From NCBI RefSeq assembly GCF_019649015.1, contig NZ_BLPI01000001.1, positions 1,197,501 to 1,261,500 of the forward strand: 64,000 nt of DNA. The letters run 5' to 3'. The translations under genes and the position numbers were made by a program. Source of the DNA: Agarivorans litoreus (GTDB taxonomy: Bacteria > Pseudomonadota > Gammaproteobacteria > Enterobacterales > Celerinatantimonadaceae). Below the pieces are notes generated by a model. The model was not told the origin of the DNA and searched no databases. It was given only the letters and a program-made list of their open reading frames with translations. Below are positions 4,852-19,210 of the stretch, one piece after another. The stretch's first letter is position 1; every line of letters begins with the position of its first letter.

Positions 4852-4909
4852 CTTTTATCGCGCAGAATCTTTCTATACTTAAACCATGCATGTAAAAAAG
4901 GTCGTCCTC

Positions 4910-5344
4910 ATGAGTAAGTTTTTCTTGGTCAACTTGATCGCCAGCATAATGCTATTTTCTCTACCCAGTCAGGCGGAACAAAAAGTTCAACTGGGTAACT
5001 ATGAAGTGCACTATGTGGCTTTTAACTCCACCTTTATTCCAGCAGAAGTCGCCAAAATTTACGGTTTGCAGCGTAGCCGATATAACGGCCTGATTAACAT
5101 CACCGTGCTCGACAGCAAATCGGCTAACAAGGCTCCAGTTGCAGTAAACATATCAGGAACAGCGCGTAACTTAATTGGTAATCAAAAAAACCTAGAGTTT
5201 AAAGAAATTCGCGAAGGCGAGTCGATTTACTACATTGCCGAACTGCGCCACAGCAACGAAGAGACCTTTCGTTTCAAGCTCACTATTGATGATGGCAAAA
5301 GCCAACAGCTGCTAGAGTTTCAACAGAAGTTCTACGTAGATTAG
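4910..5344 (+). CDS. Secreted DUF4426-type protein
   Basis: 144 aa when started at ATG 4910, which has an AAGG site 9-10 nt upstream; an in-frame ATG at 4886 has none. A Sec signal peptide covers residues 1-22 (hydrophobic LVNLIASIMLF, cleavage after PSQA). The rest is a beta-rich domain with the DUF4426 pattern (GNYEVHYVAFNSTFI, VAKIYGLQRSRYNGLINI). Such proteins commonly sit behind yggU in Vibrio and Shewanella; function unknown. Its TAG stop codon is formed by the left end of the 266-bp element that follows, and its likely terminator now lies beyond that element. Confidence 0.8.
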   Translation: MSKFFLVNLIASIMLFSLPSQAEQKVQLGNYEVHYVAFNSTFIPAEVAKIYGLQRSRYNGLINITVLDSKSANKAPVAVNISGTARNLIGNQKNLEFKEIREGESIYYIAELRHSNEETFRFKLTIDDGKSQQLLEFQQKFYVD

Positions 5345-5607
5345 GGGCTGTTAATCTTTGCTGATGGTTTTTACAGCAATTTATTAGCCATTTAAACAAG
5401 GCAGTGAGTGTGAAGTTAAGTGGGCTTAATAATCACTCACTAACGCTCAATAAATGGCTAAGAAATGCTGCCCGAAGGGTTCAGATAGGCGAACTTTACT
5501 CTTTGTTGAACACTTCTCGCTTAGCCCACTAGGCTTCTAAGTGCTCGCCGCGATTAAAGCCCGCTTATCTCGAATAAAATTTCAACACCAAAGATCAACA
5601 ACCCCTA
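5342..5607 (-). mobile_element. 266-bp MITE-like element, copy 1
   Basis: Runs from TA at 5342 to TA at 5606-5607 in reverse orientation relative to the other three copies. Left end TAGGGGCTGTTAATCTTTG and right end (reverse complement) TAGGGGTTGTTGATCTTTG are near-identical inverted repeats. The interior has further inverted segments (TTAGCCATTTA with TAAATGGCTAA; AGTGGGCTTA with TTAGCCCACT), so it folds. It carries no open frame. The flanking TA fits a Tc1/IS630-type target duplication. The first three bases are the stop codon of the gene before it. Confidence 0.85.
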
Positions 5608-5623
5608 AACAATCTAAAATACC

Positions 5624-5652
5624 CAGCCTTAGCTGTTAAGTTAAGGCTGTTT
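5624..5652 (+). terminator. Probable terminator of the proC-yggT-yggU-DUF4426 unit
   Basis: An 8-bp stem (CAGCCTTA with TAAGGCTG) and 10-nt loop, followed by TTT. It lies just beyond the inserted element, so it is probably the original terminator of the upstream operon, pushed 266 bp away from the stop codon. Confidence 0.45.
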
Positions 5653-5707
5653 CAGCACAGCCCCTTCGATTAAACTACACCAGCCTCTTGTTACTCTAGG
5701 ACTCAGT

Positions 5708-6307
5708 ATGCAAAAAGTTGTACTTGCCACCGGCAACCCCGGCAAAGTGGCCGAGCTTTCGGAATTACTTAAACCACTAAACAAGCAAATTATTGCCCAA
5801 AGTGAATTTGCCATAGAAGACGCCGCCGAGACTGGCACCACCTTTGTGGAAAATGCCATTATTAAAGCCCGCCACGCGGCTCAAATTACTGGGCTCGCTG
5901 CCATTGCTGACGACTCGGGTTTAGCCGTAGACTACTTAAATGGTGCCCCCGGTTTATACTCGTCTCGCTACGCTGGCGAAGATGCGAATGACCACGACAA
6001 CGTGCTAAAACTATTAGATGCAATGAAACAGGTACCGCCAGCCCAGCGCGGCGCAGAGTTTCACTGTGTATTGGTTTACTTGCGCCATGCCGATGACCCA
6101 GCACCGCTAATTTGCCACGGTAAATGGCGTGGTAGCATTACCGAAGAAATTCATGGTGCAGGCGGTTTTGGCTATGACCCAGTATTTTGGGTTGAACAAC
6201 ATAAGGCAACGTCTGCTCAAATCAGCAAGGCAGAAAAAAACGCCCTTAGCCATCGCGGTATTGCGTTACGCCAGTTGTTAGCGCAAATGGAAGCGCAAGC
6301 ATGCTAA
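5708..6307 (+). CDS. rdgB: XTP/dITP pyrophosphatase (RdgB/HAM1)
   Basis: 199 aa, typical length. It hydrolyses non-canonical purine nucleoside triphosphates (dITP, XTP) to monophosphates. Visible motifs are the substrate loop [11 protein letters not shown] near the N-terminus, [25 protein letters not shown] and the C-terminal [10 protein letters not shown] and [17 protein letters not shown] site precedes the ATG. The end overlaps the hemW start by 7 bp, an operon pair conserved in gammaproteobacteria. Confidence 0.96.
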
Positions 6308-7455
6308 GGCTTAGCCCAACACTTAGCCTTTACGTTCACGTGCCTTGGTGCGTGCAAAAATGCCCCTATTGCGATTTTAACTCCCATGGTCTTAAGCAAG
6401 ACTTACCTGAAGCCGACTACATACAAGCCCTGCTGGCCGATTTAGATGGCGACTTAGCGCGCTTCCCTGCCTTACATGGCCGCGCCTTGCACAGTATTTT
6501 TATTGGCGGAGGCACCCCTAGCCTGCTATCTGCCCAAGCTATCAGCGATTTATTGCAAGGCATCAAACAGCGCTTGGTTTTAGGCCCTGAGACCGAAGTT
6601 ACCATGGAAGCCAATCCCGGTACCGCCGAGGCAGAGCGCTTCGCGGGTTATTTTCAAGCAGGGGTAAACCGCTTATCCATTGGCGTACAAAGCTTTCAAG
6701 CTGAGCACCTCACCAAGCTTGGCCGCATTCACAGTGGTGACGAGGCCATCAAAGCCTTTGAGTTTGCCCAGCAAGCCGGTTTTAAGCGCATTAACCTTGA
6801 TTTAATGCACGGCTTGCCAAACCAAAGCCTCGAGCAAGCTATGAGTGACCTGCAACAAGCGTTTGCCCTTGGCCCAAGCCATTTATCTTGGTATCAACTA
6901 ACAATTGAAGCCAATACCGCCTTTGCTTCTCGCCCTCCCAAACTGCCCAACGAGGATCTGTTATGGGATATTTATGAGCAAGGCCACCAGCTACTGCAAC
7001 AAGCAGGCTTCGAGCAATACGAAGTCTCGGCCTACTGTAAAAATGGCGACCGCTCACAACACAATCTTAATTATTGGCGTTTTGGCGACTACCTAGGCAT
7101 TGGCTGTGGCGCGCACGGCAAAATAAGCGACCTAACTCAACAAGCCATCATACGAACAGAAAAAGTTAAACACCCTAAGGGTTATTTAGCACCCGAGCGC
7201 GAGTTTATGTTTAAGCACTGGGCAGTGGAGCAAGATGATTTAGCCTTTGAGTATTTCTTAAACCGCCTACGTTTGTTTGAAGATATTCCCAAGGCTGAGT
7301 TTATTAACTTAAGTGGTTTGCCGCTTAGCAAGCTTGAGTCATCGCTTAAAGAGGCAAGGCAACAAGAGCTATTAGATGAACATGATCAGCATTGGGCGGT
7401 AACAAAAAAAGGCCGTTTATTTCTAAACGACCTTCTCAATTGCTTTACTGATTAA
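6301..7455 (+). CDS. hemW: Radical SAM heme chaperone HemW
   Basis: 384 aa, matching E. coli HemW (formerly YggW). The radical SAM cluster motif CxxxCxxC is at C17, C21 and C24, followed by FNSHG; GGGTPS and the HemN-type C-terminal domain are present. HemW lacks the coproporphyrinogen oxidase activity of HemN and instead binds and delivers heme. Coupled to rdgB by a 7-bp overlap. Confidence 0.94.
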
Positions 7456-7463
7456 GCGGGTCA

Positions 7464-8198
7464 TTAAGACTCGCGAGCGAATATCAAATCCCACACACCG
7501 TGGCCTAAACGATGGCCACGGTTTTCAAATTTAGTTAATGGACGCCATTCTGGACGCGGCACATAATCATTAGTGTCAGAGGTATTGCTATAACCCGGTG
7601 CAGCTTGCATGACTTCTAACATGTGCTCAGCGTAGTTTTCCCAGTCTGTCGCCATGTGGAATACGCCGCCAATCTTTAGCTTCTTACGCAACACTTCAAC
7701 AAACTCAAGTTGCACGATACGGCGTTTGTGGTGACGCGCTTTGTGCCATGGGTCTGGGAAAAATAATTGAACAGTATCTAAACTATTGTCTGGAATACTG
7801 TCATTCAATATTTCTACTGCGTCGTGTTCAAATACGCGTAAGTTTGAAATGCCCGCTTCAACAGCATCTGCCATGCACGCGCCAACTCCAGGGCGGTGTA
7901 CTTCAATACCAATAAAGTTGGTTTCTGGGGCAGCCTTGGCCATTTCTACTAAAGAAGCACCCATGCCAAAACCAATTTCTAATACGGTTTTAGCTTCGCG
8001 ACCAAATACCTCTGCCAGTGAATAGTTGCTGGCTTGGTGGTCTAGACCCATTTGCGGCCAAAACTCTGTTAATGCCTTTTCTTGACGTTTAGTTAAACGA
8101 CCTTCGCGCTTAACAAAGCTGCGAATTTTACGAAGACGTTTATCTTCAACTTGCTCTTGAGAAGCCTCAGGTGCTTGGTTTTGGTCTTGCTCGCTCAT
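7464..8198 (-). CDS. trmB: tRNA (guanine-N7)-methyltransferase
   Basis: 244 aa, class I SAM-dependent methyltransferase making m7G46 in tRNA. The SAM loop [12 protein letters not shown] is at about residue 72, followed by [13 protein letters not shown] and the family signature [16 protein letters not shown]; the C-terminus is [15 protein letters not shown]. The first 40 residues are charged and variable, as usual. It is convergent with hemW (8 bp apart), and no terminator is evident between the two. Confidence 0.96.
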
Positions 8199-8342
8199 GA
8201 TATTTCCAGACTAGATATTGCAGGGACATTCTAAATGTAGAACAGGGCTGGCATTATCCAAAGATCTCGCCGTTGTGCAAGCTTTGCACGCTAAAGCTTG
8301 CAATGTTTTGCAGCAAAAATTAGCTCGAAAGGTGAACAGCCC

Positions 8343-8651
8343 CTAGCGTTTATTTGGAGCTAGCCCGCCTACTCGCTCAATTAAACTTTGTTGCTGCCTG
8401 AGGTTTACCGCTTTAGCCACCACTCGCTCACCCGCCGGGTAATGGTTCAAGTTATTACCATTCACCCAATCAGCTTCTGGCCTAATGGGCCTGGGGCAAA
8501 ACCCGCCACCGCAATTTGGACAAACATTAGCTAAAACTGTTTCCACACATTCTTTACAAAAAGTGCACTCAAAGGAACAAATCATCGCGTTGGTTGCATT
8601 GGCTACTAAGGGTATTTCGCAGTGCTCACAACAAGGTCGTAGTTCTAACAT
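8343..8651 (-). CDS. DUF1272 domain zinc-ribbon protein
   Basis: 102 aa when started at ATG 8651, which has a GGAG site and gives the family N-terminus MLELRPCCEHCE; the 57 extra in-frame codons upstream do not look coding. The cysteine pairs CCEHC, CSFECTFCKEC and CPNCGGGF and the motif RPIRP are the DUF1272 pattern, a small zinc-binding protein of unknown function. The last 45 residues are a family-variable tail. It shares a divergent 120-bp promoter region with the cupin gene. Confidence 0.85.
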   Translation of the reverse strand: MLELRPCCEHCEIPLVANATNAMICSFECTFCKECVETVLANVCPNCGGGFCPRPIRPEADWVNGNNLNHYPAGERVVAKAVNLRQQQSLIERVGGLAPNKR

Positions 8652-8774
8652 GATTACTCCATCAATCACTACACTATAATAAAGACAGCTTAAGAAACTA
8701 AACTGACCACTTAGGCTAGTTGAGCTTAACAATAACTCTAGATTACACTGCCAATAAACGCCTAGGATATAGCA

Positions 8775-9266
8775 ATGACCCACAAACCCAGCTCTAGACA
8801 ATATAGCGATGAAGAATTCCATGGCGGAGACGCCCCGCTATATACCGGAGATGGCTACAGTTTTAAGCAAGCCCAAGCGATGGCCACCGTGATTTATCAA
8901 CCCGCCCATTTTAGCCCACAAGCTCCCGCAGGCATGCAAGGGCAAGGACGTTTAGATGGCACATGGATATATAGCGAAGAGCCAGACAAAGCCGAAGGTA
9001 TTTTAGCCAGCGGTATAGAGCTGGTGATGGATTCAAGCCTAGAAGCCAATGGCAGTATCGGTTTGCATCAACATACTCATACCGAAGAGCTTTATTACCT
9101 GCTCAGTGGCGAGCTTGTTATTACCGTGGTTGAAGGAGAAGAGCAGCAAACCCAAACCCTTAAAGTTGGCGACTCCCACTGTATTCACCCTGGACAAAGT
9201 CACTTTGTGCAAGCTGGCTCTACTGGCGCCCGCTTTATTGTGGTTGCCGCCAAAGTTAACAATTAG
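8775..9266 (+). CDS. Cupin-domain protein
   Basis: 163 aa. Residues about 70-160 form a cupin barrel: motif 1 (GSIGLHQHTHTEELYYLLSGEL) has the His-X-His...Glu metal ligands and motif 2 (HPGQSHFVQAGS) the third His. The N-terminal 60 residues are not recognised. Probably a small-molecule-binding or isomerase-like protein. It is followed at 11 bp by an oxidoreductase-like gene, suggesting a two-gene unit acting on one metabolite; the substrate cannot be read from the sequence. Confidence 0.8.
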   Translation: MTHKPSSRQYSDEEFHGGDAPLYTGDGYSFKQAQAMATVIYQPAHFSPQAPAGMQGQGRLDGTWIYSEEPDKAEGILASGIELVMDSSLEANGSIGLHQHTHTEELYYLLSGELVITVVEGEEQQTQTLKVGDSHCIHPGQSHFVQAGSTGARFIVVAAKVNN

Positions 9267-9277
9267 GACTTCGTAAA

Positions 9278-10213
9278 TTGCTTTTTAACAACACGCCCGC
9301 CATTAATAGTGCAGCGATTATTGGCTGCAACTGGGGTTTAGTGCACTTAGGCGCTTTGCAGCAAAGCCAAGTAGAGGTTAAAGCTTTATTTGATTTAGAC
9401 ATAAACAAAGCCCAGCACCTAGCAAAGCAACATGGCATTGCTGCAGCTTGCAACAACATCGAGCAGATTCCTCCAGTAGATTTAGTGATTATTGCCAGCC
9501 CCGCAGCCTCGCATTTAGCACTTATCGAGCATTTTAAAAACACTGCCATCATCTGTGAAAAGCCGCTAATGGGCTTAAACACAGCTGAGCCCTTATCCAG
9601 CTGGCCACAAAACCTATGGGTAAACTATGCCTTTAATTACTTAGCAAGCGCCCAGCTTATCAATAGCTTGTTGGAGGCCGAACAACCAGTTAAGGCTCGC
9701 TTAAGCTCACAAGTAAACTTGCCGCTTAACTTTACCTTAGAACAGTGGTTTTTAGAGACAGCTAGCCATCCCCTATCTTGGTTATTACATCAACTCGGCG
9801 AACCCAAACAGCTATCATCTACAACACGTCAGGGGCAGCACGGTAGTCAACACTTGAGCTTAAAGCTGGCATGCAAGCAGCATCAGATTGAGGTGGATTT
9901 TAGTTTGGGAGGTTCTCCCGGCATTTTTCATCAAATCAACTTAACCCAAGGCGACAATAACATTGAGTTGCAAGGCGAATATGTACCCGGCCAAGCTTGG
10001 CGTTTTGCGCCAGTGTTGTTAAATGGTGTAGCGCAAAATAATGGGGAATATCATCCGCAGGATTGTTGGTTACAAGCCAATCATCGCTCTACATCTACCA
10101 TCATCGAGCACTTACGTGGCCACATAAGTAAACAGGAGCTACTCGCTGCAGGCGGATTTAGCCCTAACAAAGCGCTTTGGTTAGAACAAAGCCTAGTAGC
10201 CACACAAAGATAG
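9278..10213 (+). CDS. Gfo/Idh/MocA-like oxidoreductase
   Basis: 311 aa starting at TTG, with AGGA about 9 nt upstream; no better start is available. The N-terminal Rossmann-like fold has IIGCNWGLVHLGAL (in place of a GxGxxG motif, here G-C-N-W-G), FDLDINKA and VIIASPAASHLALIEH, and the ICEKPL segment carries the conserved E-K-P of Gfo/Idh/MocA proteins. The C-terminal half is short and divergent from classical members. Possibly an NAD(P)-dependent sugar or amino-sugar dehydrogenase, or a non-catalytic relative. Confidence 0.7.
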   Translation: MLFNNTPAINSAAIIGCNWGLVHLGALQQSQVEVKALFDLDINKAQHLAKQHGIAAACNNIEQIPPVDLVIIASPAASHLALIEHFKNTAIICEKPLMGLNTAEPLSSWPQNLWVNYAFNYLASAQLINSLLEAEQPVKARLSSQVNLPLNFTLEQWFLETASHPLSWLLHQLGEPKQLSSTTRQGQHGSQHLSLKLACKQHQIEVDFSLGGSPGIFHQINLTQGDNNIELQGEYVPGQAWRFAPVLLNGVAQNNGEYHPQDCWLQANHRSTSTIIEHLRGHISKQELLAAGGFSPNKALWLEQSLVATQR

Positions 10214-10222
10214 CGGTTGTTT

Positions 10223-10234
10223 CTTAAGCTTAAG
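10223..10234. promoter_or_regulatory. 12-bp perfect palindrome upstream of the Lrp-type gene
   Basis: CTTAAGCTTAAG lies 48 bp before the start of the regulator at 10282. Lrp/AsnC regulators often bind palindromes in their own promoters, so this is a candidate autoregulatory site, inferred only from position and symmetry. Confidence 0.25.
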
Positions 10235-10281
10235 CGCGGGAAAATAGCAGCAACTTTCATTATTTGAGCAAAGTGTGAAAA

Positions 10282-10749
10282 ATGAAACTCGATAGTAAAG
10301 ACAAGTTAATACTCGATTTGCTGCAACGAGACGTAAGCATCCCGCTCAACGACATCGCCGAACGGGTAGGTTTATCGGCAACGCCTTGCTGGCGTCGAGT
10401 GCAAAAACTAGAGCAAGCAGGCTTTATTCGCCACAAGGTCGCCTTACTCGATAGGGCTAAGCTCAATTTAGGCGTGACCGTGTTTGTCAGTGTGCGCACC
10501 TCGCAGCACGACCAACAATGGTTGGATCAATTCAAGCAAGCCATTCAAGATATTCCGGAGATCATTGAAGCTCACCGCATGAGTGGCAGTATCGACTACT
10601 TGTTGCAGGTTGTAGTGCCCAGTATCGACGACTACGACAAAGTATATAAGCAACTGATCGAACGCTTAGCCTTTACCGATGTAAGCTCTGCCTTTTCTAT
10701 GGAAGTCATGAAATCGACCACCTCGCTGCCAACCCACTATTTAAACTAA
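10282..10749 (+). CDS. Lrp/AsnC family transcriptional regulator
   Basis: 155 aa. An N-terminal AsnC-type winged helix-turn-helix (DKLILDLLQRDVSIPLNDIA, then ERVGLSATPCWRRVQKLEQ) is followed by a RAM effector domain from about residue 65 (VSVRTSQHDQQWLDQF, HRMSGSIDYLLQVVV). The length and fold are those of an amino-acid-responsive regulator rather than global Lrp. It lies between the cupin/oxidoreductase pair and mutY and may control its upstream neighbours. Confidence 0.9.
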   Translation: MKLDSKDKLILDLLQRDVSIPLNDIAERVGLSATPCWRRVQKLEQAGFIRHKVALLDRAKLNLGVTVFVSVRTSQHDQQWLDQFKQAIQDIPEIIEAHRMSGSIDYLLQVVVPSIDDYDKVYKQLIERLAFTDVSSAFSMEVMKSTTSLPTHYLN

Positions 10750-10758
10750 GCACTTTTA

Positions 10759-11817
10759 ATGACCAACAATCTCGCAAACTTTTCCAGCCGAGTGGTTACT
10801 TGGTATCACCAAGCTGGGCGTAAACACCTGCCTTGGCAGCAAGACAAAACACCTTACAAAGTTTGGTTGTCGGAAATCATGCTGCAGCAGACTCAAGTGG
10901 CCACAGTTATTCCCTACTTTGAACGTTTTATGCGACGTTTCCCTACGGTGAGTGACTTAGCTAAAGCCGATACCGATGAAGTGCTGCACCTTTGGACCGG
11001 CCTCGGTTATTACGCACGAGCGCGTAATTTACACAAAGCCGCTAAAGTGATTGCCGAGCAACATAATGGACGATTTCCCGAAGATATCGACCAAGTTATC
11101 GCTCTACCGGGCATTGGTCGTTCAACCGCTGGCGCGGTATTGTCTTTATCCTTAGGACAACGCCATGCCATTTTAGATGGCAACGTAAAGCGAGTACTGG
11201 CTCGTCACCAAGCGATAGCAGGTTGGCCAGGTAAAAAGCCGGTGGAAAACCAACTATGGGAACTGGCCGAAGCCAATACGCCAGAGCAACAAACCACCGA
11301 ATACAATCAAGCAATGATGGATTTAGGCGCCATGGTCTGCACTCGCAGCAAACCTCGTTGTGAGGTTTGCCCTGTAGCCGAAGACTGCCAAGCGCTTAAG
11401 TATCAGCGTCAAGGCGACTTCCCCGGCAAAAAGCCTAAAAAGGTATTGCCAGAAAAACCCACTCAAATGCTGATTTTGCATTGGCAACAGCAGTTTTTGC
11501 TCTATCAACGCCCCATGCAAGGGCTTTGGGGAGGCCTATATTGCTTCCCTGAAATTAACATTGAAGACAGCATTAGTGATTGGCTAAATCAGCAGCAAAT
11601 GAGCGCCGATGCCATTTATGAGCTCTCGCCGCTAAGGCACACCTTTAGCCACTACCATTTAGACATTCAACCTTCGCTCATCGAGCTTAGCGAAGCGCCT
11701 AACTTACAAGTCATGGCAGACAATCAACAACTTTGGTATAACATGCAACAAGCACCCAAAGTTGGCTTAGCTGCCGTTACAGAAAAGCTGTTAAAAATAG
11801 CGCAACAAGCACTTTAA
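10759..11817 (+). CDS. mutY: Adenine DNA glycosylase MutY
   Basis: 352 aa, normal length. It removes adenine mispaired with 8-oxoguanine. The glycosylase domain has the catalytic-Glu region [10 protein letters not shown], the helix-hairpin-helix [12 protein letters not shown] with the conserved Asp in [12 protein letters not shown], and the [4Fe-4S] motif C-X6-C-X2-C-X5-C ([17 protein letters not shown]). The C-terminal NUDIX-like domain ([18 protein letters not shown], then [12 protein letters not shown]) recognises 8-oxoG. Linked to yggX, the usual neighbour. Confidence 0.97.
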
Positions 11818-11823
11818 TTTAGC

Positions 11824-11844
11824 CTTTGCCTCCCTTAGGCAAAG
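11824..11844 (+). other. RNA hairpin between mutY and yggX
   Basis: An 8-bp perfect stem, CTTTGCCT with AGGCAAAG, loop CCCTT, begins 7 bp after the mutY stop. There is no following U-run, so it is more likely an mRNA-stabilising or processing hairpin than a terminator; yggX starts 20 bp downstream with its own AAGGA site. Confidence 0.4.
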
Positions 11845-11863
11845 CAAGCAAAAAGGACCTATT

Positions 11864-12136
11864 ATGGCTAGAACCGTATTTTGCCAACGTTTAAAAAAAG
11901 AAGCCGAAGGCTTAGATTTTCAACTGATTCCTGGTGATGTGGGCAAGCGCGTTTTTGACAACATCAGCAAAGAAGCCTGGACCGAGTGGCAAAAAAAACA
12001 AACCATGTTCATCAACGAGAAAAAACTTAACTTGATGAATCAAGATGACCGCGAGCTATTGCAAGCAGAAATGGTTAAGTACCTGTTTGAAGACGGTGAA
12101 GTGGATATTGAAGGTTACACACCACCCAGCCAATAA
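11864..12136 (+). CDS. yggX: Fe(2+)-trafficking protein YggX
   Basis: 90 aa, full family length. The N-terminus [19 protein letters not shown] holds the conserved single cysteine, and [18 protein letters not shown] and [10 protein letters not shown] are family hallmarks. YggX protects labile iron-sulfur clusters from oxidants, which fits linkage to the [4Fe-4S] enzyme MutY. It ends in a good terminator. Confidence 0.96.
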
Positions 12137-12156
12137 ACGCCGAGGTTGAACCCAAA

Positions 12157-12181
12157 AAACAGAGCACCAGCTCGTTTTTTT
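12157..12181 (+). terminator. Rho-independent terminator of mutY-yggX
   Basis: Stem AAAC-GAGC with GCTC-GTTT (one bulged A), loop ACCA, then a run of seven T; it ends 13 bp before the 266-bp element copy 2. Confidence 0.75.
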
Positions 12182-12193
12182 ATTTCTAGTAAT

Positions 12194-12459
12194 TAGGGTC
12201 TGTTGATCTTTGGTGTTGAAATGTTGCTCGAGATAAGCGCACTTTAATCGCGGCGAGCACTTAGAAGCCTAGTGGGCTAAGCAAGAAGTGCTTAACAAAG
12301 AGTAAAGTTCGCATATCCGAACCCTTCGGGCAGCATTTCTTAGCCATTTATTCAGCGTTAGCGTGTGTTTATTAAGCCCACTTAACTGCACACTCACTGC
12401 CTTGCCTAAATGGCTAATAAATTGCTGCAAAAACCATCAGCAAAGATCAACAGACCCTA
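12194..12459 (+). mobile_element. 266-bp MITE-like element, copy 2
   Basis: Flanked by TA on both sides, with perfect 19-bp inverted ends TAGGGTCTGTTGATCTTTG. Same length as the other three copies and clearly homologous throughout. It lies in the intergenic space between the yggX terminator and the 3' end of the frameshifted gene on the minus strand, 4 bp from that stop codon. No coding capacity. Confidence 0.88.
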
Positions 12460-12463
12460 CAGT

Positions 12464-13074
12464 TTAACGATTAGGCGGCACTTGAAAATAGGCATTTTCA
12501 GTGTCTTGGTAAGCGCTTAAATCCACTTCTTTACCTTGGTAGCTCAGCGCTATCTGCGCCGGCTCACTAACAGTGACAGCAAATGGAGCTTGTCCCTGCC
12601 ATTGCTGGTAAGTGCCAGCTTCTAAGGTTTGATTAACTAAAGTGCGCTGCTGGCTATCTACAATACGTAGCTTAAGCTCACCATTCACCCGCACGCTAAT
12701 AGTCGCCGGGCGATAGTAATGGCGCGGATAGTCATGTGGATACCAATAGTCCCAAGGATCATCTAACCAATATATCGTGGTGGTAGCACGATGATAGGTG
12801 GCAATATTTCTTCAGGTGGGATCACTTCTTCTGGCGGCGGAGCAATCGGTAGTTCTACCTCTGGCTGATCAACTTCGGGTAATACTTCAGCGATAGGCGG
12901 ATCAGGCTCTAACTCAGGCAATTGTTCTGGTTCTGGAAAGTCGGGCTCAGGCTCAGGGAAATCAGGCTCTGGAAAGTCCATATCCATGTCAAACTCATCT
13001 TCGGCAATAGCCGCCGTTGGCATTTGGCCAGCTATAACGAGCAAGATCATAGCGAGATAGAGCTGTTTCAACAT
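12464..13074 (-). pseudogene. Frameshifted secreted protein with Pro/Glu-rich repeats
   Basis: From ATG 13074 the frame encodes a signal peptide (MLKQLYLAMILLVIAGQ, cleavage after AIA), an acidic region, and short repeats of FPEP followed by a Pro-rich stretch; it stops at 12763. From about 12775 another frame on the same strand continues with WLDDPWDYWYPHDYPRHYY and a beta-rich C-terminal domain to 12464. The fusion reads naturally if two bases are removed in the TATAT stretch near 12772. The C-terminal part starts only at an internal GTG otherwise. Most likely one envelope protein broken by slippage in the TA repeat, or a sequencing error. Function unknown. Confidence 0.6.
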
Positions 13075-13208
13075 AATCGACTCAAACTTTGGTGAACTCT
13101 TTATTAGCCTAGCCATTCAAGTCAGTTAAAGCCATAACACTTATTGCTAACTAGCCCCAACACACTTTTCTGATAAGCTTAATTCTCACTCGATGAAGGA
13201 CTGATGCT

Positions 13209-14090
13209 GTGGCTTGGCAAATCTTAAGTATTGTTGCACCGCTAATAATTATTGTGGTGTTGGGCCTAATTTATGGCCGTAAACACCGACCCGACATTAG
13301 CGCCGCTAATCGCATGAATATGGAGATATTCTGCCCTGCCTTAATCTTCTCGGTGCTGGCAAATACCCAGTTAGAGCTAGCGGATTATAGCGAACTGCTA
13401 CTAGCATCAATTTGGGTAGTGTTAGGTTCCGGCCTAGTATTGCTTCCTCTGATTAAGCCTTTAGGGTTAAAGGCGCGTACCTTTTTGCCACCAATGATGT
13501 TCAACAACGCCGGTAACTTGGGACTACCGCTGATTATTTTGGCCTTTGGCGAAGCCGCCATGCCGATTGCAGTGATTCTATTTGTGGTTGAAATGGTCTT
13601 ACATTTTTCGGTAGGGCTATATTTTATTGATACCAAAGCAAAGCTGCTTTCCACTTTGCGTATTCCGGTGATTGTTGCTGCCATTGCCGGCATAGTTTGG
13701 GGAGCCTTAGAGCTCTCACTACCCAAAGTCATTGCCACGCCAATAGAAATGCTCGGACAAATATCGGTTCCGCTAATGCTATTTACCCTAGGAGTGAGAT
13801 TAATCGATGTAGATTTAAAAGATTGGCGCATCGGTATGATTGGCGCTATCGCTTGCCCTCTTAGCGGCCTATTGTGTGCTTTCATCGCCATTGCTATTTT
13901 GCCGCTCAACAGCTTGCAACAATCTTGCTTAATTTTGTTTGCAGCTTTACCGCCCGCCGTACTCAACTTTATTATTGCCGAACAGTATCAGATTGAACCG
14001 CAACGGGTAGCCTCCATTGTAATGCTGGGCAACATCGCCAGCTTAGTATTTATCCCGTTAGCCTTGTTGTGGGTACTACCTACAAATTAA
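13209..14090 (+). CDS. AEC family transporter (auxin efflux carrier type)
   Basis: 293 aa starting at GTG, with AAGGA upstream. About ten membrane helices in two halves, with the family's NAGNLGLPL motif in the fourth helix. AEC proteins export small organic anions such as malate or other carboxylates; the substrate here is not evident. Followed by a 100-bp gap and the MCP gene on the same strand. Confidence 0.88.
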   Translation: MAWQILSIVAPLIIIVVLGLIYGRKHRPDISAANRMNMEIFCPALIFSVLANTQLELADYSELLLASIWVVLGSGLVLLPLIKPLGLKARTFLPPMMFNNAGNLGLPLIILAFGEAAMPIAVILFVVEMVLHFSVGLYFIDTKAKLLSTLRIPVIVAAIAGIVWGALELSLPKVIATPIEMLGQISVPLMLFTLGVRLIDVDLKDWRIGMIGAIACPLSGLLCAFIAIAILPLNSLQQSCLILFAALPPAVLNFIIAEQYQIEPQRVASIVMLGNIASLVFIPLALLWVLPTN

Positions 14091-14193
14091 TCATTTTTTA
14101 CTCTGAATTTGCCGCTAAGTTATTCAAGGCAATTAGAATTCCTGCCTAAGTCCACTATATTTATCTTAATACGCTCGCATAGTGGACTAACAA

Positions 14194-16143
14194 ATGAAAA
14201 TAAGAACAAAGTTTTTGCTGTTGTTACTCGCAGGAGTGGTTATCCCTGTATTAGTGATTTCAATCATCACTGTTTGGAGCGTACGCAATAGCGCTGAACT
14301 CAACTTCGAACAAAGAAGCACTGCAGAGCTCGGGCATATTGATACCACCTTTTCCATCTACCTGAACGGCCTAGCCGAAGATGCTAAATTTCTCGCTACC
14401 TCTAAAGTCATCCGACAATTAGACCATAGTGTAACCACCTACATGGGCAAACCCAGCACCATGATGACACCAGATAAAATTGGCGGCTTAGAGCAAGAAG
14501 CCTTTCACTTTATGCGCGAATTTGGCGAAGCACGGCCCGACCTAGCCTATGTGTACTTGGCAATGGATCATGGTGGTTATATTCAGTGGCCTTTAGGTAA
14601 AAACTCTGCAGACTATGACCCTAGAGTGCGACCTTGGTACCCATTATCTATAAATTCGACAACCCCAGTACGTATTCCCGCCTACCAAGATTTAGTTACC
14701 AAAACCCCGCTAGTAGACTACATGGTACGTTTTGAAGGCGCCAAAGGAGCATTTGGTACTATTGGCGTAGATGTCACCCTAAGTAAACTCACAGACTTAA
14801 TTAAAAAAGTGAAGTTTGGCGAGCAGGGTTACATCATCATGATTGAAGACAGCAATACGATTTTGGCCGACCCATCAAACGAAGAAAACCTGTTTAAAGC
14901 GATTGGCGAAGTGGCGAGCTATCAGACAATTCAAAGCGCATCACCGGGCTTACATACCGTACAGAAAGACGGTGAGACTTGGCTGGCCAACGTGTATTTA
15001 TCTCCTGAACTTAACTGGCGCTTTATTGGCTTTATGCCTGCCAGCGAAGTTTATCAACAGGCAAACTCACTAATCACCTTAATAATAGGCGTTGCCATTT
15101 TGATGACAGTGGTATTTATCGCCATTGGCTTTACCTTAATGAATGTGATCACTAAACCAATGATTACCATCACCGAAGGCTTAGAGGGCATTGCATCTGG
15201 TGAAGGCGACTTAACTCAGCGTTTAGATATCCAATCTAATGATGAATCGGGGCAAATGGCCAATGCCTTCAACCGCTTTGTAGAATCGATTAACTCATTG
15301 GTTGCCAGCATTAAAGGCAATAGTGCACAAGTAGATAACTCCGCGGCGCAAGCCAGTGAGCTCTCCAGCACCATGAAACAAATAGCAGAGGGGCAACTAG
15401 CCGCTGTAGAACAAGTTTCAACCGCATTCCATGAAATGGTAGCCACCTCTAATGAAGTAGCGTCAAACTGTAGCCAAGCAGCTTCTAGCGCCGACGACAG
15501 CCAGCAACAGGTAGAGGAAGGTCATCAACTTATTCAAGATACGGTGCGCGCGGTTAGCCAACTAGAAACCACCTTGAATGAGTCCAATCAAGCCATGGAT
15601 GAACTGTCGCAAGAATCCGCTAATATCACTGTAATCTTAGATACCATTCGCGGCATTGCTGAACAAACTAACTTGTTGGCCTTAAATGCCGCCATTGAAG
15701 CCGCCCGAGCGGGTGAGCAAGGCAGAGGATTTGCAGTAGTTGCAGACGAAGTGAGAACCCTCGCTGGCCGCACTGCCGAATCTACAGAAGAAATCGACAA
15801 ACTATTGAGCAACTTGCGCCAACAAACTTCCAATGTAGCCACTAAGCTTTCTAGCAGTATTGAACACTCAAGCACCACGGTAACTGCCACCAACCAAACC
15901 AGCACAGTGTTTGAGGCTATACTACAATCGGTACTTACCATTCGAGACATGGCCACGCAAATTGCAGCTTCAGCAGAAGAGCAGCACTTGGTAGCAGAAG
16001 AGATCAATCGTAACATCACCGATATTCATGACGGCTCAAGTCAAGCAAACGAGGTATCTCAACAACTAGAACAAAGCGCAACCGCTCTTAACTCTCTCGC
16101 GGGAAGCTTACAAGAAATGGTATCGCGATTTAAAACAAACTAG
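14194..16143 (+). CDS. Methyl-accepting chemotaxis protein with dCache sensor
   Basis: 649 aa. An N-terminal membrane helix (residues about 6-28) is followed by a periplasmic double-Cache domain (to about 290; [14 protein letters not shown] is the diagnostic segment of these amino-acid/organic-acid sensors), a second helix (295-318), a HAMP domain and a cytoplasmic signalling hairpin whose tip is [20 protein letters not shown]. No CheR-docking pentapeptide at the C-terminus. The stop codon TAG consists of the left TA plus the first G of the 266-bp element copy 3; ancestral TAA is implied. Confidence 0.95.
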
Positions 16144-16406
16144 GGTCTGTTGATCTTTGGTGTTGAAATTTTGTTCGAGATAAGCGGGCTTTAATCGTGG
16201 CGAGCACTTAGAAGCCTAGTGGGCTAAGAAAGAAGTGCTTAACAAAGAGTAAAGTTCGCTTATCCGAACCCTTCGGGCAGCATTTCTTAGCCATTTATTC
16301 AGCGTTAGCGAGTGATTATTAAGCCCACTTAACTGCACACTCACTGCCTTGCCTAAATGGCTAATAAATTGCTGTAAAAACCATCAGCAAAGATCAACAG
16401 ACCCTA
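16141..16406 (+). mobile_element. 266-bp MITE-like element, copy 3
   Basis: Same ends (TAGGGTCTGTTGATCTTTG, both sides) and same length as copy 2. The left TA is part of the MCP stop codon; the base after the right TA is A, so excision would restore TAA. It separates the MCP gene from the terminator at 16422. Confidence 0.88.
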
Positions 16407-16421
16407 ACAATACGGAGAATT

Positions 16422-16452
16422 AAAAAGCCCAAGCATTTTGCTTGGGCTTTTT
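16422..16452. terminator. Bidirectional terminator between MCP and cti
   Basis: A 13-bp perfect stem (AAAAAGCCCAAGC with GCTTGGGCTTTTT) and 5-nt loop, flanked by A-run and T-run, so it can end transcripts from both the MCP gene and the convergent isomerase gene whose stop is 10 bp away. Confidence 0.9.
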
Positions 16453-16461
16453 GTTAAGTAT

Positions 16462-18831
16462 CTAGCGGTTTTCGAGGCGACTGTAATCCAGTACGCCAGA
16501 CGCCAGAGGCTCTGCCTGAAGATAAGCTTGATGGAGACGATCACTAAATGGCCAAAACTCATTATTAGTTCTGCGAATACCGTAACGCTTCATAAATGCT
16601 TGATAATCTTGTTCGTTAAATACTTGAACTAGGCTTTGCTGCAACTGTTTTAACTCAGACTTCTCTACTCGCCAAAAGGCACTTGGATAGGCCCCCACTA
16701 ACCCAGGTAAAACGCTTAATGTGTCTTTATCAGGCTCAAGGTTATTACTTTCTGAGAACAAACTAGAAATGTTGGTATGCGCATTATGCCTTAACAAGGT
16801 GTAGTACTCTGGCTCTGCTTTCTCTACATCGTCTACTTGAATAAATACCACTTGTGGCAATAGTTTGATGGCACCACCTTTCCAAGCACTAAGGTCTGTA
16901 GCAAAATCAACCACTTCTCGGGAGTATTTTGGCCAAGTAATATCATGTTTGTGACTTAAGATTGGCGTAAGCTTTTCACCAATCATATCAAACAATTGCT
17001 GTTTGTAAGGCGCATTACCGCTGTACTCAACTGCGCTTTTGAAAAAAGCTTCTTGTGGGCGAGATTCTACAAAATGAATAATGTTTTTATCTGCACCAAC
17101 ATACCAACTACGCAGCTCATCATATCTTGCTTCAGCAGGCAAAAACGAAGCAAAACTAGCTTCGCCTTCCATACGTAAAAAGTCCATATATAAACGAGTA
17201 ACCAACTGGTGACCTAAATTTCCATAAGGATCATAACCTGCCACCAACAAATAATGAATCCGCTCAAACAAGGAGTAATCAACCACCCAGGCCGTTTTAG
17301 GCTGTTTACCCACGGTACCTTTTACTACGCTGGCGCTGTCAAAATGGCGGAATATAGTGAGTGCGGCATTGGGATTTTCACCATCACCATCCCATAACAA
17401 GTCCAAATTAATTAGAGTGCTATCTTTGCTTAACCACTCATTTAATTTCTCTATACGCGCATTCATGTACTTTTTATGACGTTTTGAGTAACGCAACCAA
17501 GTACTAACGGGTAAAACATTACTTTGCGCTACAGAGGGCATTCTTAAGTGGTCACTTTGTTCAGCTAAAAACTCTCCCTGCGATTGCTCGAAACGGTTGT
17601 CAGGATTAGCAAAATACACCCAAAAATGGTCTTGGATAACATTTAAAGCTACTTGTCCTCGACAAACAGGTCCTTTCATAAAGCCCATAATAAAGGTTTC
17701 GGCATCATCTAACATAAAGCGATAACGGCCATCTATGGTTAAATCTTTAAATGCCACAAAAGGGTTACCCGCCACTTTAGGTTTGTAACTAGGTAAACTA
17801 CTTACTTGAGTATCTTCTCCCAAGAACCACTTGGTCCAGCGCTGTTGACGAGCTTTGTCTAAGCGATAAGGTATATGCGTTTTAACTACAATGGTTTCCC
17901 GCTCTGGTGCTAAGCGGTAATAGACTCGGCTTACATCAGGGTCGTCGTAAGGTCGACGGGTTGCAATTTCATCTATCGGAGTACCAGGAGCGGTTCGAGA
18001 ACGCACTAATTTAAAAAAGGCTGGGCGAGAATTTGGGTCGTCGTCAAAGTACAGATGAGTGATAAACAAATGCTCGTATATATAACGCGACATTAATTGC
18101 TCTTTTAAGGAATCTCCGTTTAAAAACTGTTCCCAATGAGAGACTTGTTCACTGAGTTTTCGATGTTCAGTTAAATCATCAGCCATTGGTGCGCCACTAG
18201 CTAGCCAAGCGGTTAAGGTATCAAACTCTTGATCACTAATTGCTGGCAAACCATAAGGCATCCCCCATTCCGGGTGCGAGGCTTGCACCTTGGCGTAACC
18301 TTCGATACCCACACACTGCTGAGCACGATCTAAGGAAAAATCAAATGCATCAGGATCGAGGATTTCGTTACCTGGATCTACATAATCACGCTTTTGCTTT
18401 AGTGCTTGGTACATTACTCCGGCTTCTAAATTAGCTTGCTCGGTTTGAACACGCTCATTGAGTACCGGATTAAAGCCTTTTTGACGCCACATTTGAGTGG
18501 ACTTTGCATCAGTATATAGACGGGTGGTTGGAGCAGCGGTTACTCTGCTTGCATGATATACACGGTCGGTAGTAACTCCGCGATCAATGCCTGCTGCAGA
18601 GGTCAATTTCAATTGACACGGTGCATCGTAGCAAGCGTGGCACATCACACAGCGCTGATCCAAAATAGGCTTCACCTCTGTAATAAACTCTGCTGCTGGA
18701 GGATGGGTCTCAGGAAAAATTCGCGTTTGTACCGACGCTTCACCAAAACGTTGATCAAACTGATTAACAATTATGCTCGAACAACCGACTACAAACAGCA
18801 GCCCCCAAAATACACCAAAACGTTTAAACAT
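16462..18831 (-). CDS. cti: Fatty acid cis/trans isomerase (Cti)
   Basis: 789 aa when started at ATG 18831 (GGGAAGAG site); 10 in-frame codons upstream are unlikely. It isomerises cis-unsaturated membrane fatty acids to trans during solvent, heat or osmotic stress. The mature N-terminal part has the heme-type motif CVMCH (at about residues 62-66 of this start) followed by ACYDAPCQLKL, the hallmark of Cti, and the long C-terminal part matches the family through FFIYANPDNRFE-like segments. The start region MFKRFGVFWGLLFVVGCSS could be a lipobox (VVGC), so a lipid anchor in the periplasm is possible rather than plain secretion. Its promoter region holds element copy 4. Confidence 0.9.
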   Translation of the reverse strand: MFKRFGVFWGLLFVVGCSSIIVNQFDQRFGEASVQTRIFPETHPPAAEFITEVKPILDQRCVMCHACYDAPCQLKLTSAAGIDRGVTTDRVYHASRVTAAPTTRLYTDAKSTQMWRQKGFNPVLNERVQTEQANLEAGVMYQALKQKRDYVDPGNEILDPDAFDFSLDRAQQCVGIEGYAKVQASHPEWGMPYGLPAISDQEFDTLTAWLASGAPMADDLTEHRKLSEQVSHWEQFLNGDSLKEQLMSRYIYEHLFITHLYFDDDPNSRPAFFKLVRSRTAPGTPIDEIATRRPYDDPDVSRVYYRLAPERETIVVKTHIPYRLDKARQQRWTKWFLGEDTQVSSLPSYKPKVAGNPFVAFKDLTIDGRYRFMLDDAETFIMGFMKGPVCRGQVALNVIQDHFWVYFANPDNRFEQSQGEFLAEQSDHLRMPSVAQSNVLPVSTWLRYSKRHKKYMNARIEKLNEWLSKDSTLINLDLLWDGDGENPNAALTIFRHFDSASVVKGTVGKQPKTAWVVDYSLFERIHYLLVAGYDPYGNLGHQLVTRLYMDFLRMEGEASFASFLPAEARYDELRSWYVGADKNIIHFVESRPQEAFFKSAVEYSGNAPYKQQLFDMIGEKLTPILSHKHDITWPKYSREVVDFATDLSAWKGGAIKLLPQVVFIQVDDVEKAEPEYYTLLRHNAHTNISSLFSESNNLEPDKDTLSVLPGLVGAYPSAFWRVEKSELKQLQQSLVQVFNEQDYQAFMKRYGIRRTNNEFWPFSDRLHQAYLQAEPLASGVLDYSRLENR

Positions 18832-18944
18832 AACTCTTCCCTGATACAGCCTTATTTTCACTAGTAGGCACTAAATACTATGCTAAGTATATAACAACTA
18901 AGGCAGATAGCATGCTAAATAACATGTCAGCCAAGGTCATTAAT

Positions 18945-19210
18945 TAGGGTCTGTAGATCTTTGGTGTTGAAATTTTGTTTGAGATAAGCGGGCTTTAATC
19001 GCGGCGAGCACTTAGAAGCCTAGTGGGCTAAGCAAGAAGTGCTTAACAAAGAGTAAAGTTCGCTTATCCGAACCCTTCGGGCAGTATTTCTTAGCCATTT
19101 ATTCAGCGTTAGCGAGTGATTATTAAGCCCACTTAACTGCACACTCACTGCCTTGCCTAAATGGCTAATAAATTGCTGCAATAACCATCAGCAAAGATCA
19201 ACAGACCCTA
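18945..19210 (+). mobile_element. 266-bp MITE-like element, copy 4
   Basis: TA-flanked, left end TAGGGTCTGTAGATCTTTG with one change from the consensus, right end perfect. It lies 114 bp upstream of cti and about 195 bp before the Fur box. The only copy in a divergent promoter region rather than at a gene 3' end. Confidence 0.88.

Follow-up and report, generated by a model that had tools for sequence, protein, structure and literature searches.

We analyzed a stretch of 64,000 nucleotides from Agarivorans litoreus (contig NZ_BLPI01000001.1, positions 1,197,501 to 1,261,500; hereafter the window), which contains four copies of a repeat that a preliminary description had called a miniature inverted-repeat transposable element (MITE) of the Tc1/IS630 type. 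The four copies were recovered at the positions and on the strands reported there (Table 1), each 266 bp long, with repeat matches 92–95% alike. Inverted ends of 19 bp are present in all four copies. They read TAGGGTCTGTTGATCTTTG on both sides in copies 2 and 3, and copies 1 and 4 carry one to three changes from it at an end. TA flanks every copy on both sides (4/4), and no gene is encoded within the 266 bp, as expected of a MITE, a short, multi-copy sequence with terminal inverted repeats. The interior inverted segments are real as well, since copy 3 folds far better than 200 shuffled sequences (z = -9.7 for the plus strand as DNA, and -10.3 for both the plus and the minus strand as RNA). Two copies touch neighboring open reading frames (ORFs). 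Copy 1 supplies the TAG stop codon of ORF 4886-5344, and copy 3 that of ORF 14194-16143, which by eye looks like a gene for a putative methyl-accepting chemotaxis protein.

The repeat is spread over the whole genome of A. litoreus (G000; 4.34 Mb in three contigs) and has relatives in other genomes. A BLAST search with copy 3 returned at least 41 matches (40 of 95 candidates scored), most of them 266 bp at 96–99% identity, and an internal 27-base pattern occurs at 60 places. Merging of 70 BLAST pieces gave at least 67 whole or partial elements, a lower bound, of which 57 are near full length. When 67 positions were drawn at random, four fell inside some 13.6-kb stretch in 7% of 5000 simulations (P = 0.07). 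The four window copies do lie within 14 kb, but given this copy number their clustering is weak, and the view that it is the unusual part is not supported. For every one of the 52 copies aligned to the query over its whole length, TA was found on both sides, and 51 of these 52 show the extended YTAR target (Y-TA...TA-R). Ten joined insertion sites were searched in six congeneric genomes, and for each of them the join was spanned without a break by one or more matches (best 77–97% identity). Nine alignments across eight of these sites were inspected at the level of single bases. At 2603695, 1526095, 1213641 (in two genomes) and 2931465 the CTAG or CTAA runs on without interruption and its surroundings match, and the remaining alignments contain more differences near the join. 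Some sites are also filled in congeners, for example 984988 in G001, G004 and G005. Sibling species thus have empty sites with a single TA, and the repeat is a non-autonomous, multi-copy element that duplicates TA and has no transposase of its own.

Among the 57 near full-length copies, no insertion lies in a reading frame that continues for 60 or more codons in both directions, and a threshold of 40 codons is reached by a single copy, indicating that insertions are essentially intergenic. Nine of the 57, window copies 1 and 3 among them, exactly supply a stop codon, which by a rough estimate is about what TA-containing stops would give as natural targets. Two copies in direct tandem (C1:3099883-3100148 and 3100147-3100412; L002 and L005) have one TA in common, consistent with insertion of one copy into the TA border of the other. 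Deletion derivatives are also present in G000 (L046 at 938728, L159 at 2265189, L151, L152 and L155). Two of them lack arm 1 of the interior fold described below and have the same junction, located at a GTTCG repeat as read from the sequence; in others arm 2 or most of the core is missing. A subfamily at 66–69% identity occurs in G000 as well (1409204, 1792493 and a partial copy at 2546660), and both types are present in G004. The coexistence of both subfamilies in G000 and G004 implies repeated arrivals.

The interior of the element is a core of two homologous hairpin modules (arms) of about 73 nt, inverted relative to each other and flanking a small CCC/GGG hairpin. Aligned in one sense, the arms read CAAGGCgcgaGGAGcG..GTtTggTTATTcCAaATgAgCGAcgagcAACGC almost without gaps, and element length is typically 266–270 nt. 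A whole-element covariance model (R1) was built from the order-level alignment A3, which comprises 30 sequences and leaves out six of 20 loci (L092, L094, L095, L098, L106 and L108) and window copy 4. R1 scores on both strands in 24 of 25 elements, as follows from the homology and inverted orientation of the arms. At the class level, all 17 fetched elements, none of them in R1 training, were aligned with MAFFT without structural information. The alignment yields 95 predicted pairs, 81 of which show compensatory change against a shuffle mean of 46.6. The proportion of paired cells is 91.8%, compared with 70.0% after shuffling and 38–42% when the columns are slid by one to three positions, and the covariation score is 0.600 versus 0.188 in controls. 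None of 500 shuffles reached the observed number of paired cells or compensatory pairs. Among 13 elements from family f225, both sides have changed in 53 of 81 pairs, a count made without a shuffle control.

The internal loops of the arms are also conserved, tandem G.A mismatches included. In the module alignment A7, which contains 30 of 34 arms and was read in one continuous register, two neighboring positions each show G.A or A.G in 26 of the 30 modules, and two further positions do so in 27 and 28. The G.A feature is not universal, as most of these places read as Watson-Crick pairs in the subfamily of the window. The ends are mostly of the TAGGGYCTG type, and two class-level elements (L182 and L187) have the same core with clearly different ends. 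In many MITEs, though not in all, the interior derives from a parent insertion sequence (IS) by deletion. Here the outermost 19 bases match IS elements and the likeness extends by eye over about 40 bases. The core has no match in the interiors of the seven IS copies compared, drawn from five genomes (local scores 19–25; shuffles 20–31), and in this the element is unlike a simple deletion derivative of an IS. Size variation was also noted: end pairs in G022 delimit discrete element sizes of 266, 281, about 294 and about 308 bp, and an inserted stretch in L098, GGTGGGAGACACC, might fold into an additional small hairpin at the junction.

Table 1. Features of the four MITE copies in the window (positions counted from the first nucleotide of the window).
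Feature	Position	Strand	Basis or remark
MITE copy 1	5342..5607 (G000:C1:1202842-1203107)	-	diverged copy; unbroken empty-site match in G004
MITE copy 2	12194..12459	+	repeat matches
MITE copy 3 (query)	16141..16406	+	empty sites in G001 and G002
MITE copy 4	18945..19210	+	repeat matches
Left terminal inverted repeat, copy 3	16141..16159	+	TAGGGTCTGTTGATCTTTG; 19/19 identical to one end of IS5-family elements in G065 and G008
Right terminal inverted repeat, copy 3	16388..16406	-	end comparison
Arm 1, copy 3	16181..16262	+	module sense on +; consensus fold of A3, coordinates from alignment columns
Arm 1, other copies	12234..12315; 18985..19066; 5486..5567	+; +; -	strand of module sense; alignment columns
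Central small hairpin CCC-TTC-GGG between the arms, copy 3	16269..16277	+	consensus fold of A3
Central small hairpin, other copies	12322..12330; 19073..19081; 5471..5479		alignment columns
Arm 2, copy 3	16284..16367	-	module sense on -; consensus fold of A3, alignment columns
Arm 2, other copies	12337..12420; 19088..19171; 5381..5464		alignment columns
Match of single-arm model R2 to arm 2, all four copies	16290..16361; 12343..12414; 19094..19165; 5387..5458	-; -; -; +	

Directly behind copy 3 lies a terminator-like hairpin, AAAAAGCCCAAGC..GCTTGGGCTTTTT (window 16418-16450), which is covered by the empty-site matches in G001 and G002.

Other families, as well as Vibrio and Pseudoalteromonas, have relatives at 64–71% identity, many of them over the full 266–269 bp. 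More matches, often partial, were obtained from Catenovulum, Colwellia, Shewanella, Methylophaga, Azotobacter and Halomonas. Searches with the models were run under strict filters, with at most five candidates scored per genome. R1 detected the element in 150 of 394 genomes of the order (38%; 45 of 115 genera), 10 of which had contributed to its training, and the matches listed all span the model end to end. Within the class, 30 of 369 genomes and 26 of 272 genera were positive; 27 of these 30 genomes are outside the order, and 29 have an end-to-end match. A model of one arm (R2) found matches in 105 of 398 genomes of the phylum, 64 of them outside the class (49 in family f225 and 15 in other families). 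Of the loci beyond the class, 22 were fetched (21 in f225 and one in f246); 17 of them, all from f225, have an end-to-end R1 match of 265–294 nt, and the other five are shortened or partial. The whole element occurs in two classes of one phylum, and a wider spread is indicated by single-arm matches. In the window, R2 matches arm 2 of all four copies, and arm 1 of the window's subfamily gave no match. No match was obtained in phage records (two queries), E. coli genomes (one query) or viral contigs (one exact pattern). Rfam 15 gave no gathering-score match in the window and, for 17 loci of relatives, one match (t44) that lies outside the element; low-threshold scans returned weak matches alone, far under the gathering scores. 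A description of the element was not found in searches of open-licence PubMed Central (PMC) papers.

The end of a distant relative, used as query, led to the ends of IS5-family elements on Enterobacter, Pseudomonas and Paracoccus plasmids. The end occurs on both sides of these elements of 809–828 bp, and their flanks read Y-TA...TA-R. At one of their ends, IS elements of 859–888 bp in G065 and G008 are identical to the window MITE over 19 of 19 bases. The IS ends in G065, G206, G008 and G360 are of the window's GATCTTT type (17/19 in G206 and G360), and in G515 the IS and MITE ends are both of the AACACTA type, with 17 of 19 bases in common. Y..R flanks are present in all 12 IS copies tabulated. 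The 253-aa protein from G065 matches the IS5_3 model NF033580 at 262.5 bits (cut-off 110), together with PF13340 and PF01609. The first frames of the Pseudomonas and Paracoccus elements, which are partial proteins, reach 101–104 bits, just below the cut-off, and the G008 copies have a stop within the matched domain. The MITE shares its ends with IS elements that encode an IS5_3/DUF4096 transposase. In a PF13340 search of 35 genomes (34 MITE carriers and the MITE-free G003), 10 had a match and 25 had none. ISPsp10, an element of the IS427 group, duplicates TA in its published description (PMC4133298), and the partner elements probably belong to this group as read from domain and size. IS5_3 enzymes very probably mobilize the MITE in trans. 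We take it as established that the repeat is non-autonomous, has IS5-type ends, duplicates TA and contains a folded core that is deeply conserved. The preliminary description was right about a non-autonomous, TA-flanked, multi-copy element; its readings of IS630 and of clustering are not supported, and it did not include the conserved two-module core or its range.

Several other candidates for an autonomous partner were rejected. An IS630-type element of about 1.1 kb is present in G000, in four copies that are nearly identical (C1:443713, 695126, 845936 and 3077827; L072–L075). They end in TATACCCAATCAACTTG and not in the MITE ends, and no IS630-like transposase with matching ends was found among them. 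Three of the four groups of PF01609 elements in G000 were examined, and their ends differ from those of the MITE. About 100 of 141 end matches in G000 were inspected by eye, and no inward pair at IS-like spacing was seen except between separate MITE copies; nine leftover regions that were read are MITE copies or fragments. Partial matches on Vibrio and Pseudoalteromonas plasmids are truncated relatives with no transposase between matching ends. On the plasmid of Pseudoalteromonas sp. KG3 (L121), a truncated relative at 2501-2709 stands just before an IS110-family transposase gene, and IS110-type elements may target this relative.

Drift within the genome was examined in 55 near full-length G000 copies more than 90% identical to the query. 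Among 161 distinct substitutions, 110 fall on paired positions (68.3%; expected 73.7%, P = 0.13), and the pair is kept in 33 of these 110 (30%; neutral expectation 29%). Where both sides of a pair have changed, the pair is kept in 11 of 11 cells, all within six copies, most of them diverged. Resident copies thus lose the fold, which lineages that continued to be copied have kept. Because resident copies lose the fold at an approximately neutral rate and lineages keep it, selection seems to act on copying. The strands also differ in their mismatches. If a double-stranded cruciform were the sole functional form, G.T and A.C mismatches should be equally frequent. Pairs taken from a one-strand fold give the folded strand an excess of G.T by construction, and the direction in the phylum set then follows the strand that was folded; the test was limited to pairs found by folding both strands, with 20 of 26 elements in the phylum set. 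In arm 1, G.T:A.C is 35:5 in A3, 17:11 in the class-level set A6 and 9:8 in the phylum set. In arm 2, A.C:G.T on the same strand, which equals G.T on the other strand, is 14:3, 22:6 and 17:9, respectively, and in the terminal stem the two mismatches are balanced or almost balanced (9:4, 16:18 and 11:11). This pattern fits folding of each arm as a single strand in the module sense.

Taken together, we consider it likely that the MITE is mobilized in trans by IS5-family (IS5_3, probably IS427-group) transposases and that the core fold is selected when elements are copied. An IS5_3 transposase would recognize the 17–19 bp ends, and the element would insert at Y-TA-R with duplication of TA. A single-stranded form, either single-stranded DNA exposed in replication or RNA read through the element, would fold and so raise the chance of mobilization, and the inverted duplication would place one module in the folding sense on either strand. 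The architecture is kept by compensatory change in at least two classes, with ends that vary and in some hosts resemble the local IS5-type ends. For the fold serving mobilization as a single strand, we see slightly less than an even chance. More tentatively, the two-module core may be its own unit of selection, a bacterial counterpart of short interspersed nuclear elements (SINEs), present in several classes of one phylum, with a fold that promotes mobilization, ends exchanged among changing IS5-type transposases, and activity in either orientation through a module on both strands.

Several observations speak against mobilization by IS5_3 enzymes combined with selection of the fold at copying. 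A search with PF13340 found no IS5_3-type gene, and hence no cognate transposase, in G000 or in six congeners, and gave a match in only 10 of the 34 MITE carriers covered. The IS ends compared in G379 and G714 differ from the MITE ends, and no IS ends like those of the window MITE were found in G387, G017 and G119. Some lean toward the modeled structure remains among the class-level elements, as a structure model served to find them. The resident copies are young (mostly 2–8% from the query), which limits the power of the neutrality test; a slight, non-significant deficit of substitutions exists at paired sites; and the 11 double-change cells are partly shared by descent, representing fewer than 11 events. 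Since two copies have lost arm 1 at one and the same junction, a derivative lacking this arm may itself have moved. The excess of G.T over A.C is clear in the order and class sets and weak in the phylum set (9:8 and 17:9), and the cells are not independent.

Among the rival explanations, the strongest is that the module acts as RNA in host transcripts, where a sense module in either orientation would fold and would stabilize, process or insulate the message, and elements without the fold would harm the host and be lost. Essentially intergenic insertion would agree with such a role, as would the preference of the arms, not clearly shared by the terminal stem, for G.T on the module-sense strand (35:5 and 14:3 in A3; 17:11 and 22:6 in A6). 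The placement of nine copies exactly at stop codons could be read in the same way, but it is close to the rough expectation for TA-containing stops. A precedent exists in Correia and ERIC elements, which are described as affecting mRNA through RNase III or RNase E sites (PMC10969869). However, the loss of pairs at a neutral rate in resident copies is unexpected if each copy needs its fold, and we regard this explanation as possible though rather doubtful. A second rival attributes the compensatory changes to template switching in a long imperfect palindrome during replication and not to selection. The element is nearly palindromic, the arm-less derivatives point to slippage at hairpins, and G.T and A.C are even in the terminal stem of A6 and the phylum set. 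Correction of this kind would remove mismatches, yet unpaired columns are as conserved as paired ones (0.746 versus 0.724), and at each of two neighboring positions 26 of 30 modules still have a G.A mismatch. It would also leave unexplained why the module sequence is common to several classes, and we judge it improbable. A Tc1/IS630-type MITE, although TA duplication and a CTAG-like target are known for IS630 and fit the element, is very improbable, since the four IS630-type copies of G000 have other ends and the elements with the MITE ends encode IS5_3 transposases.

The element resembles several known families of small repeats, as far as the cited descriptions go. ERIC, Correia (NEMIS) and RUP elements are likewise short, without transposase, foldback, mostly intergenic and TA-ended, with tens to hundreds of copies, but they are described as arm-less stem-loops, whereas the window MITE has a three-hairpin core (PMC2229807, PMC10969869). 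In the same descriptions, ERIC is reported from two families, while the window MITE ranges beyond one class, and RUP is paired with IS630-Spn1, in contrast to the IS5-type partner found here (PMC2229807, PMC10969869). The CIR elements of Caulobacter and Brucella also have two long hairpin arms and a linker, but they are about 110 bp, carry GANTC and are listed without terminal inverted repeats (PMC2229807). Intergenic repeats of P. fluorescens, compared by a table of sizes alone, are 50–352 bp (PMC2718517). The IS427 group, represented by ISPsp10, shares the TA duplication and, by our own reading of the partner elements, their size class and domains; its members encode a transposase, and the partner elements compared have no structured core (PMC4133298). 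TIMEs are described as non-autonomous elements of 262 bp with strongly conserved size and variable sequence, with short conserved core stretches and transcripts predicted to fold alike (PMC4133298). They differ by their 38-bp Tn3-type ends and 5–6 bp duplications (PMC4133298). The element analyzed here has two inverted modules, a TA duplication and IS5-type ends, which across its relatives are mostly of the TAGGGYCTG type; these features set it apart from TIMEs by description.

Bacterial MITEs are usually viewed as short-lived deletion derivatives of one IS. Here a gene-less architecture is found in 38% of the sampled genomes of an order and beyond its class, with a fold that is kept by compensatory change while single copies decay. 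These unannotated repeats could be mistaken for structured RNAs in many genomes. The presence of the same two-armed fold in distantly related bacteria suggests that the shape itself matters for spread. This raises the question of what a fold does for a DNA element without a gene, and the MITE offers a compact system for asking whether nucleic-acid structure raises transposition.

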